Shown: positions 2,812 through 19,515 of the stretch, piece after piece
How the letters are laid out: each line of letters starts with the position of its first letter
Numbering within the stretch: the stretch's first letter is position 1
IMG/VR virus record: IMGVR_UViG_3300008448_000884
Location: 1 to 20,049 of that record
DNA length: 20,049 nucleotides
Origin: a virus
Reading direction: 5' to 3' (one strand)
Translations under genes and position numbers: made by a program
Notes under the pieces: generated by a model
The model's database searches: none
What the model saw: only the letters and a program-made list of their open reading frames with translations
Told to the model about the DNA's origin: nothing

Positions 2812-5800
2812 TTATCTCAACGCAAGTATTAAAGGTGTAACTTCTGCTTGTATTGCTCTACTAAAATCTCTTCCTCTGATTGAAGAAGTTGTTTGGTCAA
2901 TTTGAATTCCTTCTCCAATATCAAAATTACCTTTTTGGTCTGTACTAGTAAATGGAATTTGAGCGCCTTCGCGGGCAACAACTTCGTTTGCCTTAATTGG
3001 AACCGCACCCTTAAGAGGTGTTGCTGTATTTATATCTGTTCCCGTACCGATATACTCAAATGAATGTGAACTTGTCAGAATTCTGCTAATTCTTCTTAAT
3101 TCAATATCATCATCATCAAATAACTCATAAGGAATAAACTCATTAAAAGTAACTGTTGTAATTCCAGTTGGAGATGTTGGTGGAGTAGCCGCAGATACTG
3201 TGAAGTAAATAGGGCTCATTATGGCAGTTGCAAGACCGGTATTACCCTCAATGTCTACAACGATATTTTGAGATGCCAAATAATTTCTACCAGTACTCAC
3301 AACATCTATTGCCGTAATTTCTCCGGCATCATTAATTGTAGGACTTACTTCGGCAATAATAGATTGAGGACCTTTTGGTTGAACTGTTCCATCGGCATCA
3401 CGAATAATTATATTTGGTGGAGAAACTGCACTAAATCCAGAACCCCCATTTAAAACTTGAATGGACCCTAGTTCTCTTAAAGGTTGGGTAATGACTCCGG
3501 ACCCCACGGCATCTGGATAATTATCAAGGTTAATTTTAAACCAAAGGGATTGTCCATCATAAGGTCTTCTTGGAAGATTAGATGCATCAAATACAGAAGT
3601 AAGAGTTATTGTATCAACTTCAGGAATACTGTCCCCCAAAACTTTACCGGTGAACTCTGTTGAACCAAGACCAACGGCAACTAATCCAAAATTACCAAAT
3701 GAGGAGTTAGAGTTTGTAAGGTCACAAGAACCTCCAGTATCTGCATAAATTGCGATATCGCAGTTAATCGTAAAGATAGAAACCAACTGAGCATATCCAT
3801 TATTTGTAATTGATACGCCAATACCCGCCTCATTATATTGTGTGAAAGAATCACAAACCATGCATTTTAAATCATTACCAATTGTAGAGGCAGTTGCATG
3901 ATCGCCATTAATTTTCATACCAATACTTTTTGTCATGAAGTTGGTACAGTTTCTGACGTATGGACTTCTCCACCTTCCGGTCGGACCTTCAGTTGCTGGT
4001 CCTGGTGCAATATATCCAGAAACTGCATAATCTGAGGGGTTTGTTGGTGGGAATGCCAAGGCACCACACCCAGTATGATCTACAGTTATATCTTTACCCG
4101 CAAAGTTTAGGTTTTCAATTAAACATCCTCTTCTTACATGAAAAACATCTTTATTTGGATTATTAGGAACAATTGTTACTAGTCTTAAATCTTGACCAGA
4201 AATTGTGACATCTGTGCGAAGACCAATCGGATTATTTTCATAGTAAACGCCAGAACGAATCATAACAGTGTCGCCAGGTTCTGCCTCTGCGGCAGCAGAA
4301 CCAATAGTTAATTTAGCAGATCCTTCGGTTCTTCCATTATTATCATCATTTCCATACTTAGAAACATAAATGATATTCTTGGAATCTGCTCCGGCAGGTG
4401 CCCATACTATCTTTCCATCAGGATATGTGGTTCTGGGAGAAGCAGAAGGTCCGCCATTAATAATTGTGGTTACAATTCCTGCACAGACAGTAATTGCAGA
4501 GACAACATTAGAGCATCCATTAATATTTGTATTAGATCCTACAACAGAATCATCCTCTAAAGTTAAATCTTTAATTTGAGGAAAACTAGATCCTACGCTC
4601 TGATATGACTTTGGAAGGGTTGCATTATTAATTACATATCTTGCAATTTGTGCCGCTGTTGTAATGGCGACAATTGTAGCATCTTTTACCGAGTATCCAT
4701 TAGTATCCGTGGTATTAATATGTACTAATGTATTTCCATTATAATAAGATAGTCCGGCACCAACAGACCTGGAGTTTCCTCCTCTTGTAATATCATAGGT
4801 AATTGCCTTTAGAATATCTTTAATATCATCTTTACAATTTACGGGATCTGTAGTAACGCCCAAGGAATTGACTATATTGAAAGGTGGATTTTTATAATCA
4901 GTACTTGTTAAAAATCCAATTGCCTCATTTGCAATAAAATTAAGATTAAGTCTGATGAGATTTGCAGCATCAAAAAATCTACCACCTATAATACCTCCCG
5001 ATGTATCAACTCCAACGGTAGTTAAAACATTTCTTGGAACTTGATATTGTTCTGACCTAAATCCGACATTTTCATTAGTATCATATATTGCCGATCCATC
5101 AAAGAAAATATCCTTTTCTTTGAATTGAATATCCCTTTCCGGAACAGTTGTGCCAAATCCAACGGATCCAATTCCTGTTGTTGTAATAACCGTGCCAGCA
5201 ATTCCAACTTGGAGAGTAGTATTAAGTGTTGTGGCACTATCAACATTTAATGTTCCGTCAACATCTAAATTTGCCTGAACATTTACTAAATCAGTTGCAG
5301 CATCAAGATTTAAGTCTCCAGATGCAGTATCAATAGTATTATTATTAGCACCATCGGCAATTCTAATCTCTCCAATATGTGCATCGGAAAATGGCAGTGA
5401 AGGAGTTCCTAGATATGCTCCTTCATCAGCGGCGGGCACAATACCAACATCAACGGTTACTAGTCCTCTTAATCTTGAAGTTAAATCAACATCTAGAGTA
5501 TTATTAAGTGTAGTTTCGCCATCAACATTTAAAGTTAAATCAAAATCAACTGCATCAGTAACATGAAGGGTTCCGGTAATGTCTAAAGTTGATGTTGGAT
5601 TGTTATTTTGTATTCCAACACTCGTCATTCTATAGATATTGCCACCAGACGTAAATCCCCAAAGATCTTGGGATTGTATATCTGCTATAAATGTAGGATT
5701 ACTTGGATTTAAAATGGGAATAATTGTGTCTGTCCCTACTCCAAGACTGTTAATTTGTTTAAAGTTTAATGTCGTAAAGGATTGTGCTATTCCTGTTGTT

Positions 5801-9008: not shown

Positions 9009-10355
9009 TTATGATTTCCCAGTATTAGTCCCGTAACTTCCAAATGTATCTCTAATTAATGTCATGGATGTATATGAACCCTCTGTGTCAAAGTGATGAC
9101 ATAGTTCCTTTATCATATATAGACCACTTTGCTCATCGTCATATGTTGCCCCATCTTCTCTAGAAATCTTTGGAAAGTTGCAGGTTATAATATCACCGGC
9201 TCTTAGATTAGTATTTGAAGGTACGGTCATACTCAAAGTCTGAGTAAAGAGTATGTTGTATCTCATAATTGCCTGCGATTGATACTTAAACGGATCAGAA
9301 TTTTCTTCTCTAGAAACACCTGGTTCCATAGTGCCGATATCTAAAACCTGTGTCAAAATTCTTGAAGGAGAATCTCCAAGACTTACATTAGAGCTACTTG
9401 AAATCTTTGGTAGTTGGAGCTCCTGCCCTAAATTATTTACACCACTTACATAATTACCTAATCTAAAGGTTCCTTGCTCTGGTGGAGTAAATTCAAATGT
9501 GAGTGGATTATAAAACATTCTATAACTAGAATAAGTCCCTAATCTAAGTTTTTCAATTAGATTTTGATTTCTGTTTGTTGTGTATTGTAAAATATTAAAG
9601 TCATTATTTCTTTCATTTCCCGATTGGTTTACATCACTATACCTATACTCTGCCTTTGGTTCTTGAGAAATTAATTTATCAATTGACCTAAAATTAAACC
9701 CATCTTGCGTTTGATAAAATACATATCCTGCCGTTGCGTCTTTCTTTGAAATATCAGGAACTCCTTTAGATGCCAACCATACTAATACTGTAAATGGTTT
9801 TCTTAAATTGCCAATAAATCCATATTTGTTTTGTGTTTTATCAATCTTATCAATCTTATCGGTTCTTAAATATTCATTAATAATACTTTCTACAGAATCA
9901 CTAATTGATTGACTGGTTGGAAATTTCTTTGGAACTCTTACTGTTTCATTCGTAATTGCTTCTCTTGAAACTAGATTGAGTTCAAAGAATTCTCGTTGAG
10001 ACTCTGAAATAACATTTGTAATACTGGAAACATAAAGATAATCTTTCTCGTCGGTTGCAAAATCTAGTCCTGGATTTGTTCCAGAATTTCCGGCAATCTT
10101 TAGAGAAACTCTTTCACCACCTCTTAAAGGAAGACCATTATAAATTGATTGAAATGTTCCTGTGGCATTTCCTTCATTATCCTGCGCCTGAATAGAATCT
10201 CCGGTATTTCCTACCTGAATCTTTACGGTAATCGTAGGTGAGAAAATATCCTCATAGTAATCAATAGAAACCGTACCAGTTCTAATGTCAACGGTCCTCT
10301 TCTGGTCGTTGGATTCAAGTATAAGTTCTTCGTATATTGACTTTTTAATTGACAT
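9009..10355 (-). CDS. gp27: Baseplate hub protein, gp27-like
   Basis: Complete 448-aa frame with ATG at 10355. The start overlaps the upstream stop by one base (TAATG), and the gene ends right at the gp5 start. The sequence is beta-rich at the N-terminus (RTGTVSIDYYEDIF, then TVKIQVGNTG), with a central part recalling tail hub proteins: a helix-rich segment with SISDSVESIINEYL, then FTVLVWLASKGV followed by YVFYQTQDGFNFRSIDKL. The C-terminal part contains a MTVPSNTNLRAGDIITCNFP strand-loop typical of hub barrels and ends SLTLIRDTFG-like (SMTLIRDTFGSYG). T4 gp27 is 391 aa and partners gp5 in a 3:3 complex. Its position directly before gp5 is the strongest argument. Sequence similarity to T4 itself is too low to judge by eye. 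Confidence 0.65.
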   Translation of the reverse strand: MSIKKSIYEELILESNDQKRTVDIRTGTVSIDYYEDIFSPTITVKIQVGNTGDSIQAQDNEGNATGTFQSIYNGLPLRGGERVSLKIAGNSGTNPGLDFATDEKDYLYVSSITNVISESQREFFELNLVSREAITNETVRVPKKFPTSQSISDSVESIINEYLRTDKIDKIDKTQNKYGFIGNLRKPFTVLVWLASKGVPDISKKDATAGYVFYQTQDGFNFRSIDKLISQEPKAEYRYSDVNQSGNERNNDFNILQYTTNRNQNLIEKLRLGTYSSYRMFYNPLTFEFTPPEQGTFRLGNYVSGVNNLGQELQLPKISSSSNVSLGDSPSRILTQVLDIGTMEPGVSREENSDPFKYQSQAIMRYNILFTQTLSMTVPSNTNLRAGDIITCNFPKISREDGATYDDEQSGLYMIKELCHHFDTEGSYTSMTLIRDTFGSYGTNTGKS

Positions 10356-12289
10356 TATGTGTATGCTAAGTCTAGTAAAAGTTTCTTTGTGATGAAACTA
10401 TTTAACGGATTAATTATGAGAGGAATCATCATCGCTCCTCCACCACCAATAGAACCTTGTGTTTGTGATGCAGGAGGTTCTTCTTCTATAATAATAATAC
10501 TAGGTCCAACTTGTTGTTGTGCTAATTGTTGAGATGCTTGCTGTCTCCGTTGAGTTCCTGATGGTGTTATTTGTGCTGGTGTTGGAGCGGCAATTTGTGC
10601 TGGTTGCCCTGCAAGTCCAGTAAGTTGTTTTCCGATTGAAAGAAGTCCTAGATATGGTCTTGGGTTTATAGAATCTCCACCTCCCGGTCTTACTTCAAAG
10701 TGAAGATGTATTCCTGTACTTCCCCCAGTACTTCCAATTTCACCAATTGTTTCTCCATTATAGGGTTGTCCTTTTCTCACCATTACTTTTGCCAGGTGGG
10801 CAAAACGATATATTGTATTTCCAGATTTAATATCAACATAATTACCATATCCACCACTATATCCTAAAGAAACATCAGAAATTGTACCTGATAGTTTTAA
10901 TGCAACATAATATCCACGACCCGCTGGAGCTATATCAATTCCGTGGTGCATTTTATATTTACCAGATGTGGGACTTAATCTCATCCCTCTTTCTGATGTA
11001 ATTATCCCTGCCGCCCCTCCCGGTTTTCCTTTGAACTGGTCTACAACTGATGTTGAAACTGCTTGTGATGGTTGTATTGGTGCTGGTGCTGGTCTTGGTT
11101 GTGGTGTTGGAATTGGTTGCGCTCCCATTCCTTTAAGAATCTTGCGACTATCTTCAATTCTTTCACCCTGTTCTCTTTTTCCTTTATCTGCAGGATTTTC
11201 ATAATTAAACAAAATCCAGTTGGATGCCTCTTCTATAGATTTTGTTGACTTAAAGGATGGTAGACGCTGCAGTTCTCTTATCAACATCGCATAATTAATT
11301 TCATCCGTAAGAGGTTGTTTTGTTGGGTCAACTCCCATACTTTTGGCAAGATTAAATAGTTCCTGTTGTCTTGACGGATAAGTCCACTGAGCCCAACCAT
11401 AACCTATTCCTTTTTTCATAGCTTCCGGTAAAAGACCTTTTTTGGAACCTTCAAGTAAATCAGGAACTAAATTAGTATTTTCTTGCAATAAATTTCCAAC
11501 AACTGCCGCTGCTTGATAATCTTTTAATCCCAAATCCTTTTGTAATCTTTTAGATATTTGTGTCCCCTTTGCCACTCCCGATCCAGAAAATCCTCCCCCA
11601 GAAGGTTGCTGCTGCATACTCTCATTCTCATATTGAGTTCCAAAGGGTTGTGCATCTTCACCACTTACAACTCCTTCTCCAAGAGATGTTGTAAGTAACT
11701 TAAATCCTTCATCAAACTGACTTTGCATATCCTCAAAAGTTCCACCCAAATCCGCTAATGCACCTTCAACTCTTCCCTTACTATCCATAAAGTCAAAGGT
11801 TAGAATATTTTTACCAACAGCACTCAGGAGATTTCCAAATCCTCTAAACAAATTTATGGTATTATCAAAAAATCCAGTTACAATAGAATAAAGTCTTTGT
11901 ATTCTGGCAATCAATTCTTGCGCCATCGTAATAATTGATGGCAAATTTGTGAGCAACCATCCAACCAATAAGGTTCCCAAGAAGTCCATAATTCTTCCTA
12001 AGAATCCTTTAGTGCTTGAAGCAACTGCTTTTGCCTGCCTCTTAAATACTCCACCAATACTTGATGCCTCTAAAAGGTCTTCTTTATTTTTTCTTCTTTC
12101 TTGTTCTTGTCTTCTTTGTGAAAGTATATAATTTCTTGCTATTGATTCTCTTTTTACTTTTGTTTTTTTCAACATAACATCATTAAGATTTCCGGCATTC
12201 TTTCTAAGACCAGAAAATGAATTCTTTATTGACTTAATGCCAGAACGAATATTAAGAAGACTGTTGGATGGTTTTACTGCTACTGCCAT
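10355..12289 (-). CDS. Tape-measure-like tail protein with phage tail lysozyme and M23 peptidase domains
   Basis: Complete 644-aa frame, ATG at 12289, one base after the preceding stop. A basic, charged N-terminus (40-70) leads to a hydrophobic helix around 97-120 (DFLGTLLVGWLLTNLP) that has a counterpart in the neighbouring 575-aa protein. Residues about 242-390 resemble the phage tail lysozyme family: VVGNLLQEN with a candidate catalytic Glu270, then GYGWAQWTYPSRQQEL. A proline-rich linker (392-408) precedes an M23 endopeptidase domain (about 420-548). Its zinc-site residues are visible: H448 and D452 in HHGID, H530 in HLH, with H498 and H528 as catalytic histidines. The two domains would cut glycan and peptide bonds of the host wall during tail penetration. 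The C-terminus (FITKKLLLDLAYT) is short and hydrophobic. Its place next to the hub suggests it is carried inside the tail tube or hub. Confidence 0.8.
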   Translation of the reverse strand: MAVAVKPSNSLLNIRSGIKSIKNSFSGLRKNAGNLNDVMLKKTKVKRESIARNYILSQRRQEQERRKNKEDLLEASSIGGVFKRQAKAVASSTKGFLGRIMDFLGTLLVGWLLTNLPSIITMAQELIARIQRLYSIVTGFFDNTINLFRGFGNLLSAVGKNILTFDFMDSKGRVEGALADLGGTFEDMQSQFDEGFKLLTTSLGEGVVSGEDAQPFGTQYENESMQQQPSGGGFSGSGVAKGTQISKRLQKDLGLKDYQAAAVVGNLLQENTNLVPDLLEGSKKGLLPEAMKKGIGYGWAQWTYPSRQQELFNLAKSMGVDPTKQPLTDEINYAMLIRELQRLPSFKSTKSIEEASNWILFNYENPADKGKREQGERIEDSRKILKGMGAQPIPTPQPRPAPAPIQPSQAVSTSVVDQFKGKPGGAAGIITSERGMRLSPTSGKYKMHHGIDIAPAGRGYYVALKLSGTISDVSLGYSGGYGNYVDIKSGNTIYRFAHLAKVMVRKGQPYNGETIGEIGSTGGSTGIHLHFEVRPGGGDSINPRPYLGLLSIGKQLTGLAGQPAQIAAPTPAQITPSGTQRRQQASQQLAQQQVGPSIIIIEEEPPASQTQGSIGGGGAMMIPLIINPLNSFITKKLLLDLAYT

Positions 12290-12290
12290 C

Positions 12291-14018
12291 TTATGTCACC
12301 ACATTATAATTTACTTGTGAGTAGAGCACATAGAAATTATCTGGATTTGATGCCGATATTGATGGAACCTGATTTACGGGTCCGCCAGTAGGAGCGGCAC
12401 CCGACCTTTGTTGTGCAGAAGACCCAACTCTCCTGTAAATTACATTTGGTGCCGGTGCTGGCGCAGGACCAACATTAACTTGAGCAGGAACTCCGTTAGT
12501 TTGTGCCGGTAGTGGTTTTATATTTACTTGACTTGGTTGTGATGAAACCTGATTACCTTCTTCTGGCGTTATATTAACTTCACCATACTGCGGTGCCTGA
12601 GTGAAGTCAATTGAAGATGCCTGTGCTTTTAAATCACTCATTTGTTGTTCAAATGATTTATCACTTACAGCGGCAACAGGTGTAGCAGCAGGAGGAGGAG
12701 TTTTGGTAGGTGATGGTATGACTTGACTTTGTGGTTTTGCCGCTGATGTTTTTGCTGCTTTAGGTTTATCAGCACCAGTAAGAACATCCGCACCTTTTCC
12801 TCCAAAAACCCAACCAAAACCACCACCAATCAAAGAAGCAACAGGAACAGTAATAGGTGAAATTGGTCCTCCTAAAAGACCAAGTTTTGCTCCGACGGCT
12901 GCCCCAGCCATTGACCCCGCTACACTACCACCAGCTCCGGCACCAGCTTGAACATCTGTTTGTCCTTGTAATTTTCTACTTCCAAATTCAAATCCTCCAA
13001 ATAAAATATTAAGAAGTCCACCCTTTCCCTTTAACCAATTCATAGGTCCACCACCTTTTGGAGGTGGGGCAGCACCTCCTTTTGGTGCAGTTGGAGGTGC
13101 TGGAGGTTTAGTGCCAGGAGGTGTTGTTGTTGGAGGAACTATTGTAGTTGTTGGTGGTTTTTGTTTTCCAAGACCAAGCAAGGCTGCTCCGGCACCCTTT
13201 AAAACACCTCCAAGTGCTCCAAAAAATCTACCAATTGTATTCTTAAGTAACCATCCACCAATCTTAAGAGATAATCTAGTAATGGTTCCGGCAATTGCAA
13301 AAAATCCACCATTCAATAAGAATAATGTTGCGGCACCAATTCCAAGAGCCTTTAGAACATTATCTCTAATTTCTATTAATTTTTTACCATTATCTTCGGA
13401 AATTGCTCTAAGAGTTTCAATTCCTTGATTCGTCAACCATCCAAGTAATAATGTTCCAAAGAACTGTGATAATCTACTTAGAATAGATTGTGTTTTTTGT
13501 GCGATTGCCTGAACCGGAGCAATTAATGCACTTTGTATTGCTTTCTCTAAAAGACTTTCTCTACCTGCTCTTAATCCTAATTCTGTTGCTCTTCTTTGTT
13601 CTTCTTGCTCATCTTTAATACGCTTTTGTTCTAGAATACTATCAGTATTAATTGCCTTTGCAACATTAGTCAAAGAAGCATTAAAACCAGTAACTTCACC
13701 TCTTAAACTTCCAACGAGTTCTTGCACTCCATTTACAGTTTGTGTCTGAATGAATATTACTTTATTTAAATTAGCAACTTCAGAACTTAAAGTATTGACC
13801 TGACTCTGTAAAGAAGTTATTGATGTGGATTGAGACTTTACGATTGCCAGAGTCTCTGGGTCCGATTTCTTACTAATCGGAACAAGTGCTCCTCCACCAC
13901 CAAAAATATTTGATGATATTTGACTTCTTCTGAATAGTGCTTTTCTTTTTTCCGCAGACAAATAGGACCCTGATATAGGATCTACCCCACTTTGAGCTAT
14001 TTGTGCTAAATCAGCCAT
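12291..14018 (-). CDS. Tape-measure / gp29-like tail protein
   Basis: Complete 575-aa frame, ATG at 14018, overlapping by 8 bases the end of the small -1 frame ORF. Residues 55-150 are heptad-rich and likely coiled coil (LQSQVNTLSSEVANLNKV, then a charged EQKRIKDEQEEQRR run). Residues about 178-205 (LSRLSQFFGTLLLGWL), 222-247, 253-285 and 365-410 are hydrophobic or Gly/Ala-rich and could insert into a membrane. Low-complexity proline linkers lie at 288-325, 417-450 and 515-525. The C-terminus SASNPDNFYVLYSQVNYNVV is the only ordered-looking end. T4 gp29, the hub/ruler protein, is 590 aa. Similar length, helix-coil-hydrophobic make-up and position right after the gp26 chaperone region support a tape-measure role. 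Direct homology to gp29 cannot be shown by eye. Confidence 0.6.
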   Translation of the reverse strand: MADLAQIAQSGVDPISGSYLSAEKRKALFRRSQISSNIFGGGGALVPISKKSDPETLAIVKSQSTSITSLQSQVNTLSSEVANLNKVIFIQTQTVNGVQELVGSLRGEVTGFNASLTNVAKAINTDSILEQKRIKDEQEEQRRATELGLRAGRESLLEKAIQSALIAPVQAIAQKTQSILSRLSQFFGTLLLGWLTNQGIETLRAISEDNGKKLIEIRDNVLKALGIGAATLFLLNGGFFAIAGTITRLSLKIGGWLLKNTIGRFFGALGGVLKGAGAALLGLGKQKPPTTTIVPPTTTPPGTKPPAPPTAPKGGAAPPPKGGGPMNWLKGKGGLLNILFGGFEFGSRKLQGQTDVQAGAGAGGSVAGSMAGAAVGAKLGLLGGPISPITVPVASLIGGGFGWVFGGKGADVLTGADKPKAAKTSAAKPQSQVIPSPTKTPPPAATPVAAVSDKSFEQQMSDLKAQASSIDFTQAPQYGEVNITPEEGNQVSSQPSQVNIKPLPAQTNGVPAQVNVGPAPAPAPNVIYRRVGSSAQQRSGAAPTGGPVNQVPSISASNPDNFYVLYSQVNYNVVT

Positions 14019-14184
14019 TTGCTTGATTCTTTAAATTTTCTTCTTCAATATAATTTTGTAGAAGAGTTATATAAATTTCCCTTTCCCAAGGAATCATATC
14101 TTCAAGTTCAGTCAAAGAGTATTTATGATGCTGCATCAGAGCAAAGTTTGTCTTGTAGTATGACGCAAGATCAGTATGCGCCAT
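14011..14184 (-). CDS. Small ORF, likely C-terminal (T-like) extension of gp26 made by -1 frameshifting; tail assembly chaperone
   Basis: A 57-codon frame from ATG at 14184 to TGA at 14011-14013, overlapping the start of the 575-aa gene by 8 bases. The ATG lies 2 bases after the gp26 stop with no convincing Shine-Dalgarno sequence, and it sits inside the 5' arm of a stem-loop, so independent initiation looks poor. The frame is exactly -1 relative to gp26 and is open back across the slippery heptamer at 14193-14199. Frameshifting would join gp26 residues 1-238 to 60 further codons (R-V-G then this ORF), about 298 aa in all. The peptide (KTNFALMQHHKYSLTELEDM, then IPWEREIYITLL) resembles C-terminal halves of phage tail assembly chaperones, which bind the tape measure protein. 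The tape-measure-like genes follow directly. Confidence 0.75.
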   Translation of the reverse strand: MAHTDLASYYKTNFALMQHHKYSLTELEDMIPWEREIYITLLQNYIEEENLKNQANG

Positions 14185-14199
14185 ACCTACACGAAAAAA
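14158..14199 (-). promoter_or_regulatory. Predicted -1 programmed ribosomal frameshift signal
   Basis: Read on the minus strand, the last gp26 codons are GCT TTT TTC GTG TAG. They contain the heptamer T TTT TTC (14199-14193) in the correct X XXY YYZ phase. Five to six bases later a stem-loop begins. The 5' arm GTATGGCGCA (14186-14177) pairs fully with TGCGTCATAC (14167-14158), with one G-U pair, around a 9-base loop, and a further G-U pair could extend the stem at its base. Heptamer, spacer and stem all fit the usual bacterial and viral -1 frameshift arrangement. The frame entered encodes the small chaperone-like extension. Confidence 0.75.
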
Positions 14200-14906
14200 G
14201 CCGACAGACCCTCCAATACAACTTCACTTTCTACCCCAGTCTTTGGATTTTTAATCTTGATTGTATGAGAAAGTTTAGGCATAGTCTCAAAGAACTTCTC
14301 AACTTCTTTGAATTGTTTGGAACTTAATTGCTCTACAAATTCCAGTAATTCTTTTTTAGTAGAATCACTTGCAGTCCAAGATTCCTCTTCCGAATAAATC
14401 TGATCGATACAGGATATAATTAAATCAAAAGTATCATCAACACTTACGCCATCGCCAGAATCAAAATTATTTTTAATGAACTCCGTCATAGATGGATATC
14501 TCATTCTTAAAGTCAGAGTATCATCTAATTTAATATCACGAGAATGTTTTGAGTCAACCTCAACATTAATCTCATCCAAATTAATACTCATCGGAACCTG
14601 AGTCGTTTCATCATCAGGACAAGTAATTAAAACATCAACAGTTTCTCCAACTGACTTACCTCTGATATTGAGGAACAAATACTCAATATCAAATGTAGAC
14701 AGGTCTTCTACTTTAACGCCTTTGCTTAAAATACAATTTGAAATGACATTCTTAACCGCGTTTGCAATTTGCTTGGAATCTTCGCTTTCCAACGCAATAA
14801 TTAGAATTTTTTCTTCTTTAACAAGAAAGGGTCTATATCTAATTTTCTTTTTTAATGACGGAATTTCCAACTCATAAATTGGAGTTGCAATCTTTGGTAA
14901 AGGCAT
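14187..14906 (-). CDS. gp26: Baseplate hub subunit gp26 / tail assembly chaperone
   Basis: Complete 239-aa frame, ATG at 14906 preceded by TTTTTAGGATATT, which supplies an AGGA ribosome site. It matches the T4 baseplate gp26 family: MPLPKIATPIYELEIPS, then KKKIRYRPFLVKEEKILI, a YLFLNIRGKSVGE motif and CPDDETTQV. T4 gp26 is 208 aa. The C-terminal third has helices with paired acidic and basic residues (VEQLSSKQFKEVEKFFETM), and the chain ends GLSAFFV. The terminal codons form a slippery heptamer that would divert some ribosomes into the small downstream ORF. Gene position just before the tape-measure-like genes and the frameshift architecture match the lambda G gene, so a chaperone role around the tail ruler is likely. 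It has its own late-type promoter box at 14931-14939. Confidence 0.85.
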   Translation of the reverse strand: MPLPKIATPIYELEIPSLKKKIRYRPFLVKEEKILIIALESEDSKQIANAVKNVISNCILSKGVKVEDLSTFDIEYLFLNIRGKSVGETVDVLITCPDDETTQVPMSINLDEINVEVDSKHSRDIKLDDTLTLRMRYPSMTEFIKNNFDSGDGVSVDDTFDLIISCIDQIYSEEESWTASDSTKKELLEFVEQLSSKQFKEVEKFFETMPKLSHTIKIKNPKTGVESEVVLEGLSAFFV

Positions 14907-14944: not shown

Positions 14945-15715
14945 TTAGGCAACCCCAACAGGTCTTGGATCATCTAGTCTACCGGTTCCAAGATTGAGGT
15001 TTCTATTAATCAACTCGTCTCTTCCTGTTGCAAGTCTATTTTGCCTATTTGCTTGATTTATAGTGTTGTTGATAATAGTATTAGAAACTTTATTATTATC
15101 ATCGTTACGGTTAAAATCTAAACTTAATGTTCTACCACAAACATATCTTTCATAATTAAATAAGACACTTACTTTCAATATATCAGACCCATTATACTGG
15201 ACTGGCACTGAATTTAAAGTAAGTGGGAAAAGTCCAAAGAAATTATATTCAATTTCTGCATTATAATCTCGGTCAAATTTAATAATCTTAGTCATATCAC
15301 TCTTATAATCTCTTGGATATCTCATTCTAAAGTAATATCCGTCTCTAGATGGATTCTCATTAGAACCACCGGCAATAAACTCCATCCAGTGCTCTATGAA
15401 TTTCAAAGTAGTATAGTTACTATCAACATAAAACTCTAGACCAATTTCTGTAAAGATTCTACGATGAGCGACTCTTTCGTTTACTCCTGTATAATTATTG
15501 GTAATATCTGCGGTTGCTAATGTAGTTCCTGGTAGTGATGCCGAAAAACAAAGTAATCCGGCATCATTAGCAATAAATAATGGGTCAACTCCTCTTATCG
15601 CAAGATGTGATAAAAGTGGACCGGGCAAACCACCAAACACAACCTGAAAGTGTGAACTCTGGGCGAGATTTGTAAATAGTGGCTTAAAGTCGGATATTCT
15701 ACGGATAATAGGCAC
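14945..15715 (-). CDS. gp54: Tail tube-like protein, probably baseplate tail tube initiator gp54
   Basis: Complete 256-aa frame from a GTG start at 15715. An in-frame TAA lies a few codons upstream with no ATG between, and AAAAGG stands 8 bases before the GTG, so the GTG start is forced. The protein has the tail-tube fold signature shared by T4 gp19, gp48 and gp54: HFQVVFGGLPG, then LLCFSASLPGTTLATADI, and a RIFTEIGLEFYVDSNYTTL strand followed by FIEHWMEFI. A C-terminal Asn-rich tail (about 200-256) is probably disordered. gp48 is encoded separately in this window, so gp54 is the best fit; T4 gp54 is 320 aa. A tube-protein paralogue of another role is the alternative. It heads the minus-strand hub block and shares a divergent promoter region with gp4. 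Confidence 0.6.
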   Translation of the reverse strand: MPIIRRISDFKPLFTNLAQSSHFQVVFGGLPGPLLSHLAIRGVDPLFIANDAGLLCFSASLPGTTLATADITNNYTGVNERVAHRRIFTEIGLEFYVDSNYTTLKFIEHWMEFIAGGSNENPSRDGYYFRMRYPRDYKSDMTKIIKFDRDYNAEIEYNFFGLFPLTLNSVPVQYNGSDILKVSVLFNYERYVCGRTLSLDFNRNDDNNKVSNTIINNTINQANRQNRLATGRDELINRNLNLGTGRLDDPRPVGVA

Positions 15716-15756: not shown

Positions 15757-16200
15757 ATGTCTTATAAGGGAAAATTTAAACCATCATTTCCAGAAAAGTA
15801 TCTTGGTGACCCGACTAATATTATATACAGGTCTCTGTGGGAATTAAAGTTTCTCAAATATTGTGATACGAATGCAAATATTTTAGAGTATGCCTCTGAA
15901 GAACTTGCCATTCCTTATCGTTCTCCTGTAGATGGTAAAGTTCATAGATACTTTCCTGATGCTTATATAAAAGTCAAAGAACCTGATGGAAGTATTAAGA
16001 AATATCTGATTGAGATTAAACCTTATAAGCAAACGATGCCACCACCCAAACCAAAAAGGCAGACCAAAGGATATATCTATGAGGCATATGAGTATGCCAA
16101 GAATCAATCAAAATGGGAGGCAGCAAGAGAATATTGTAAGGACAGAGGATGGACCTTCCGAGTTCTCACGGAAAATGAATTGGGGATTTCTAAAAAATGA
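15757..16200 (+). CDS. gp4: Head completion protein gp4 (TnsA-like nuclease fold)
   Basis: Complete 147-aa frame, close to the 150 aa of T4 gp4 (gp50). The N-terminus MSYKGKFKPSFPEKYLGDP, the RSLWELKF helix and the YFPDAYIK and YLIEIKP strands are characteristic. Residues E29, D68 and E86-x-K88 form the constellation of a TnsA-type or PD-(D/E)xK nuclease. In T4 the protein acts late in capsid maturation, when filled heads are prepared for tail joining. The stop overlaps the next start as ATGA, so the two genes are coupled. Upstream ribosome-site similarity is poor; the ATG follows a late-type leader of about 30 bases. The proline- and lysine-rich loop at 94-104 is of unknown role. Confidence 0.9.
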   Translation: MSYKGKFKPSFPEKYLGDPTNIIYRSLWELKFLKYCDTNANILEYASEELAIPYRSPVDGKVHRYFPDAYIKVKEPDGSIKKYLIEIKPYKQTMPPPKPKRQTKGYIYEAYEYAKNQSKWEAAREYCKDRGWTFRVLTENELGISKK

Positions 16201-16544
16201 ACCGTATCAAACCCCTGCTTAAAAACTTATACGGAACAGAAGATGCGGATGATTTGATGTTAGAAATACTTGATGTATTGAAAGAAACCACAAGGTCTCC
16301 ACAGGCAGGTAAGTTTTATACTTTTGTTTATAGACCAAAGACTCCTCGTGTAAGATATGATGCAAATCCTTTTGTTGCCGTTACAAATGTTTATTCCTGG
16401 GGATTTAGTGGTATTAACTTCCACTGGGGAGAACAACGTCAATATACCCTTGATGAAGTAATTGGACCTCTACATATTGTGGATAAAAATGAGGTCGGTG
16501 ATTTAAGAAGAATACCTTTCGGACAAATCAAGATAAATAACTAA
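16197..16544 (+). CDS. Conserved-looking protein of unknown function (115 aa)
   Basis: Complete 115-aa frame with ATG at 16197 overlapping the gp4 stop by 4 bases (ATGA). A helical N-terminus (NLYGTEDADDLMLEILDVL) precedes a compact aromatic beta-rich part with KFYTFVYRPKTPRVRYD and the motif SWGFSGINFHWGEQRQYT. I recognise this pattern as recurring beside baseplate genes in T4-like phages but know no function for it. Its position between gp4 and gp48, with tight spacing, argues for a virion assembly or structural role. Small size and lack of signal peptide or membrane segment suggest a soluble protein. Confidence 0.7.
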   Translation: MNRIKPLLKNLYGTEDADDLMLEILDVLKETTRSPQAGKFYTFVYRPKTPRVRYDANPFVAVTNVYSWGFSGINFHWGEQRQYTLDEVIGPLHIVDKNEVGDLRRIPFGQIKINN

Positions 16545-19164: not shown

Positions 19165-19193
19165 ATTATAGCAAAAAATCACTCATCAGTCAA
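19165..19193 (-). promoter_or_regulatory. Sigma70-type extended -10 promoter for gp32
   Basis: The minus strand carries TTGACT (19193-19188), a 17-base spacer and TATAAT (19170-19165), with TG one base before the -10 hexamer (TGCTATAAT). The -35 box overlaps the last codons and stop of the DUF1825-like gene. Initiation near 19158 would leave a leader of about 38 bases ending in GAGG before gp32. This matches host housekeeping sigma recognition rather than the late phage type. Confidence 0.85.
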
Positions 19194-19515
19194 GATACTT
19201 TTTGAGTGACTCAATTGTTTTTGTCATACTGCCGAAAAGAATACTCATATCAGTTTCCGGTGGGAATCCCATCAGAGCAACGGACTTTCTCAGATTCTCT
19301 TTCATCTCAATTGCCTGAGGGTCATCGGAAAGAGAAAGTCTTGTATACATAATACGCTGTTTTTCAAGCAGTCTTGTCATTTTTTCAATATGTTCCAGTT
19401 TATCTTCACGGGGCATCATACCAAAAGTTAAAATACTATTGTATATAAACTCTTGGAGTTCGTGAATTTCTTTAAGTTCTTCCTGAATAAGTTCAGAATC
19501 AAAAAAACTACTCAT
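19186..19515 (-). CDS. DUF1825-like protein of unknown function
   Basis: Complete 109-aa frame whose ATG at 19515 overlaps the end of gp59 by 8 bases. The opening FFDSELIQEELKEIHEL, the MPREDKLEHIEKMTRLL segment, the RIMYTRLSLSDDP part and a C-terminal LFGSMTKTIESLKKYL fit the small, all-helical DUF1825 family, which I know from cyanobacteria and cyanophages. No function is established to my knowledge. It lies between the helicase loader and gp32 genes, so co-expression with replication genes is expected. T4 gp33, which lies near gp59 in T4, does not match it. The family link is from memory of its pattern, not a search. Confidence 0.7.
   Translation of the reverse strand: MSSFFDSELIQEELKEIHELQEFIYNSILTFGMMPREDKLEHIEKMTRLLEKQRIMYTRLSLSDDPQAIEMKENLRKSVALMGFPPETDMSILFGSMTKTIESLKKYLD

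Follow-up and report, generated by a model that had tools for sequence, protein, structure and literature searches.

A conserved slippery site and hairpin at the 3′ end of gp26 point to programmed −1 frameshifting into gp51 in T4-like marine phages

The window analysed here, that is, the whole stretch of 20,049 nucleotides, belongs to a T4-like marine phage (cyanophage) and carries the gp26 locus on the minus strand. The question raised by this locus is whether the short reading frame running past the end of gp26 is a gene with its own start or the last part of a longer gp26 product, reached by −1 slippage of the ribosome. We consider it very likely (probability about 0.93), judging from the DNA and its homologues, that gp26 is the equivalent of lambda G and that a −1 slip would yield a 298-aa fusion equivalent to GT. 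An earlier note on this DNA had proposed the same pair, with a fusion of about 298 aa, and the conserved signal, the open −1 frame, the homology to gp51 and the gene order all support it. It is the comparison of relatives that makes programmed frameshifting very likely. The elements of the proposed signal are the following.

14187..14906, minus strand: gp26, short tail assembly chaperone (TAC-N), the zero-frame product; 239 aa; PF12322 8.3e-75, phrog_150 8.6e-83
14193..14199, minus strand: slippery heptamer T_TTT_TTC, in phase
14187..14189, minus strand: gp26 stop codon TAG, one codon past the slip site (TAG, TAA or TGA in relatives)
14158..14186, minus strand: candidate stimulatory hairpin; 14186-14177 pairs with 14167-14158 in a 10-bp stem with a 9-nt loop

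The 3′ end of gp26 reads GGT CTG TCG GCT TTT TTC GTG TAG, so that the in-phase U UUU UUC which the earlier note had placed in the last codons of the gene lies at 14199-14193, with the codon GTG (14192-14190) between it and the stop. Among the 16 gene ends of the window, gp26 alone has an in-phase heptamer 12 codons or less from the stop. Considering that other heptamers occur about 1.4 times per gp26 gene, the heptamer by itself is not rare and its significance comes from conservation in relatives, by which a chance occurrence at the gp26 end was ruled out. The hairpin is separated from the heptamer by 6 nt, inside the 5-9 nt required of a downstream RNA structure. Its arms are GTATGGCGCA and TGCGTCATAC, with one G-U pair in the stem and an extra G-U closing pair possible at 14187/14157. 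The predicted fold had z = -3.2 against shuffled sequences and was within the lowest 0.5% of 1334 windows of 45 nt on the same strand. A spacer of 5-6 bases had been announced and is 6 nt; the description of the stem and the loop was exact.

Beyond the slip site the −1 frame encodes a recognisable domain.

14011..14193, minus strand: −1 frame extension, gp51-type T domain; phrog_634 6e-28, C-terminal part of phrog_150 6.5e-6
14182..14184, minus strand: ATG that could be called as the start of gp51, in the 5′ arm of the stem

The extension comprises 60 codons from the junction Arg and terminates in the TGA at 14013-14011, inside the beginning of the following, tape-measure-like gene (ATG at 14018), in agreement with the 60 open codons reported earlier. 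The predicted fusion thus has 238+60 = 298 aa. This frame is not an anonymous extension, since it is already annotated as gp51 in cyanophages. In the proposed mechanism, a minority of ribosomes would slip back one base at U_UUU_UUC near the 3′ end of gp26, helped by the hairpin 6 nt downstream; those ribosomes would pass the gp26 stop and continue through the 60 codons of the gp51 domain, the product being the long chaperone. As for the ATG at 14184-14182, it is buried in the stem, as had been pointed out, and the search for a Shine-Dalgarno match 4-10 nt before it found none; it is probably not the main route to gp51.

The search for gp26 relatives gave 941 phage records, and the extension was matched by 566 records. 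From IMG/VR and named phages we obtained 265 usable loci, reduced to 147 non-redundant ones (less than 90% identity). An in-phase heptamer of the type X_XXY_YYZ was found near the gp26 stop in 144 of the 147: 132 TTTTTTC, 6 TTTTTTA, 5 TTTTTTT, and one TTTAAAC. The last one is from a Rhizobium phage (L088, about 3190-3235), where GAT TTT TTA AAC stands 24 nt before the gp26 stop and likewise leads into the gp51 frame. Carriers of the heptamer include T4-like phages of Pelagibacter, Ochrobactrum, Caulobacter, Pseudomonas, Stenotrophomonas, Aeromonas, Vibrio (ValKK3, F86) and Rhizobium. In the 143 relatives with the heptamer at the gp26 stop, the codon preceding it is always AGT, TCT, GAT, AAT, GCT or ACT, that is, the third base is T in 143/143 despite five different residues (S, D, N, A, T), and in each of them the extension stays open for 56-69 codons. 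At the slip site, all three third positions are 100% fixed in 60 close relatives, against a mean of 65% in the upstream codons. Heptamer and spacing, which the earlier note had wished to see compared in related cyanophages, are kept in relatives, and so is the −1 frame of the second ORF, whose loss it had named as a counter-argument.

These data also bear on two other ways of reading the locus. In one of them, gp51 is a small protein in its own right, initiated at its own ATG through translational coupling or reinitiation after the gp26 stop, the fusion being absent or minor. It is annotated as a separate gene in S-PM2, P-HM1, S-SSM7 and others, and an ATG near the front could start it separately in 102/143 relatives, a count against the frameshift reading. 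On the other hand, in 32/143 none of the first 12 codons of the extension is ATG, GTG or TTG (for example ACG-2014i, L085), so that these ORFs are not separate genes by ordinary initiation; a clear independent start, which would have told against the frameshift, is missing in many relatives. Besides, the candidate ATG of the window lies inside the stem with no Shine-Dalgarno match, and an independent gp51 leaves unexplained the fixed TTTTTTC and the −1 frame that is open before the ATG. We judge this explanation very unlikely. In the other, RNA polymerase slips on the run of six T and the fusion is translated from the resulting mixed mRNAs. The combination of a homopolymer run and a hairpin would suit such slippage, but the run has only 6 T in most relatives, which is short for RNA polymerase slippage, and both the 6-nt spacing and the heptamer's phase are as expected for ribosomal slippage. 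What is conserved is T_TTT_TTC in phase, and the Rhizobium relative has T_TTT_TTA_AAC. Transcriptional slippage seems to us highly improbable.

The hairpin of the programmed frameshift signal was also followed in relatives. Predicted folding is stronger in its region than elsewhere in the gene (mean z -2.6, with 73% in the best 5%). For the pairing analysis, 60 window-like relatives were picked by protein similarity and not by pairing, and aligned without gaps. In this set pairing holds in 92.4% of the stem cells, compared with 24-48% when the partners are slid, and 31 cells are changed on both sides of the stem, so the stem conservation that had been suggested as a check is present, with compensatory changes. 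Of all the pairs, one varies most (UA in 29, GC in 25, AU in 3); it joins the silent third position of an Ala codon to the second position of a codon which alternates between Ala, Glu and Val. On a tree of the remaining gp26, parsimony counts at least 10 GC/UA switches of that pair; when only well supported branches are taken there are 4-5 independent switches, nearly all in step, a number too small for a sign test. Other clades have other hairpins at the same place: GCCCTC..GAGGGC in the P-HM1 types, long A/T-rich stems in the S-PM2 types, and a GGGCTCTC..GAGAGCC stem in further relatives. The predicted hairpin is weak or absent in five loci (L004, L092, L101, L139 and L172), which counts against the frameshift reading. 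It could also be thought that an ancestral fusion gene has decayed, leaving the signal and the open frame as relics that now have no function; a fusion ORF does exist in relatives, as T4-type phages have a complete gp51 gene. The constraint on the site and on the −1 frame and the compensating stem changes across divergent loci speak against decay, and we give this idea hardly any credence.

Some relatives depart from the programmed frameshift arrangement. Vibrio phages D503 (L089) and 1.255 (L100) have no heptamer, and their gp26 and gp51 overlap in TAATG; they may use coupling, and they count in favour of a separately started gp51. In another locus (L054, 2501-3394) gp26 and gp51 are fused in frame into a single 297-aa ORF, and by comparison with its relative L043 the slip site has lost TC, a 2-nt deletion. 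A second gp26 was sought in the 236-kb contig of L054 and was not found, and the search for further in-frame fusions of this kind gave its own contig alone; being the only one of its kind found, it is as likely an assembly error as a real variant. It is a tentative idea, and one that we regard as rather unlikely, that T4-like phages make one chaperone pair by several routes: poly-U frameshifting with separately evolved hairpins, duplication plus fusion as in the T4 type, possibly a stop-start overlap as in Vibrio 1.255, and, in L054, the long form only or another trick for the short one.

The T4-type genes help to identify the two products. In T2 and Aeromonas phage 25, genes 26 and 51 are separate and divergently oriented, gp26 and gp51 are both PF12322 proteins, and gp51 consists of the PF12322 domain followed by the same C-terminal domain as the extension of the window. 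Since both products are PF12322 proteins and gp51 has the extra domain, in the T4 type the short and long forms are two paralogous genes, while in cyanophages the long form would be made by frameshifting; the window would encode, by means of the shift, a short and a long form with a common N-terminal domain. That T4-type gp51 is a full fusion is a further point against an independent small gp51. T4 gp26 and gp51 have been described as hub assembly chaperones, gp51 being needed for assembly and absent from the final particle (review PMC3004832). It was noted in 2010, with the frameshift unmentioned, that other gp51 proteins are far longer, cyanophage gp51 having only about 20% of their length and lacking the first ~200 residues (PMC3037559). 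A frameshift would account for the short cyanophage gp51, the missing part being gp26.

The tail chaperone fold is represented by the solved members 2OB9, 3KLU and 3FGX. The query for the AF2 model was the L054 fusion (direct translation), standing in for the fusion of the window; considering that the extensions were misplaced when aligned with it, the model was built from gp26 rows only. It had a pLDDT of 78.7, with low confidence in the C-terminal part. Profile and fold searches against solved structures gave no significant match, which counts against the frameshift reading; the best chaperone fold match was 3FGX, a tail chaperone (PMC9603447), and it was non-significant (E 3.3, probability 0.41, 52 columns).

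The position of the pair among the tail genes was also considered.

14945..15715, minus strand: tail tube protein gene, upstream neighbour; PF23849 3.5e-19, phrog_45 1.8e-40
12291..14018, minus strand: tape-measure-like gene, downstream neighbour; phrog_794 (tape measure) 5.8e-5

The tail tube (PF23849), gp26/gp51 and tape-measure-like genes follow one another as V, G/GT and H do in lambda, where the chaperone genes have this location. The tail tube annotation in relatives agrees with it, and in Rhizobium, Caulobacter and Pelagibacter relatives the next large gene after gp26/gp51 bears a tape measure annotation. The tape-measure-like gene (12291-14018) and the one after it (10355-12289, minus strand) are consecutive large genes with a common N-terminal region (27% over 130 columns, 2e-8), and both match phrog_3405; in the second, a Phage_lysozyme2 and a Peptidase_M23 domain are present. 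The two genes may share the tape measure role or hold it in duplicate. Elsewhere in the window, the DNA end protector gp2 (16197-16544, plus strand; 115 aa) looks shortened, as it matches only positions 28-120 of a 210-position family, and a 109-aa protein with DUF1825 (1.5e-13; 19186-19515, minus strand) adjoins gp32 and the helicase loader.

It has been known since 1993-2004 that tail chaperone genes contain conserved frameshifts, and the one of lambda G/GT was reportedly described by Levin in 1993 and by Xu, Hendrix and Duda in 2004. As in lambda, the −1 slip of the window would occur in the 3′-terminal part of a chaperone gene located between the tail tube and tape measure genes, and would give short and long forms with the same N-terminus. 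The slip site differs, U_UUU_UUC in the window and G_GGA_AAG in lambda; the protein is of the PF12322 family, sequence similarity to lambda G not being among the likenesses, and a clear hairpin follows the slip site of the window. By analogy with lambda, the short and long forms would be made in uneven ratio, gp26 would coat the tape measure protein and the gp51 domain would recruit tail tube subunits.

Among T4-like phages, T4 and T2 also have PF12322 in both gp26 and gp51, gp51 ending in the domain of the extension; there genes 26 and 51 are two separate, divergent genes, and no frameshift is needed. According to two papers that cite it (PMC10885494 and PMC12846349), the study of Vladimirov, Gautam and Davidson (Virology 2022, 566:9-15) identified the tail assembly chaperones of T4-like phages; it is cited for poly-T slippery sites in short-form genes in PMC12846349 and for separate short and long genes in some T4-like phages in PMC10885494. 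As presented by those papers, these chaperones and those of the window are protein pairs of one kind from one phage group, some T4-like phages carrying separate genes instead. We take this pair to be gp26/gp51, with which the PF12322 data from T2 and Aeromonas phage 25 agree. The earlier statement that such a frameshift was not established for T4-like gp26 is thus not quite right, the chaperones having already been identified, on the account of the citing papers. Also in Vandenendeviridae and Andersonviridae a conserved poly-T slippery motif (GTTTTT) lies where the short chaperone gene ends, ahead of the tape measure, although these are other phage families with another motif (PMC12846349).

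The frameshift trick of tail chaperones is therefore known from many tailed phages and, going by the papers that cite the 2022 study, already recognised in T4-like ones, which limits the novelty of the locus; the features that may be new are the extent to which it is conserved, the gp51 ORFs without a start codon and the covarying, repeatedly rebuilt hairpin. Many cyanophage records enter gp51 on its own, as a "baseplate hub assembly catalyst"; these should read short and long tail assembly chaperones, and the set of relatives is a large natural experiment on the stimulators of bacterial −1 frameshifting.
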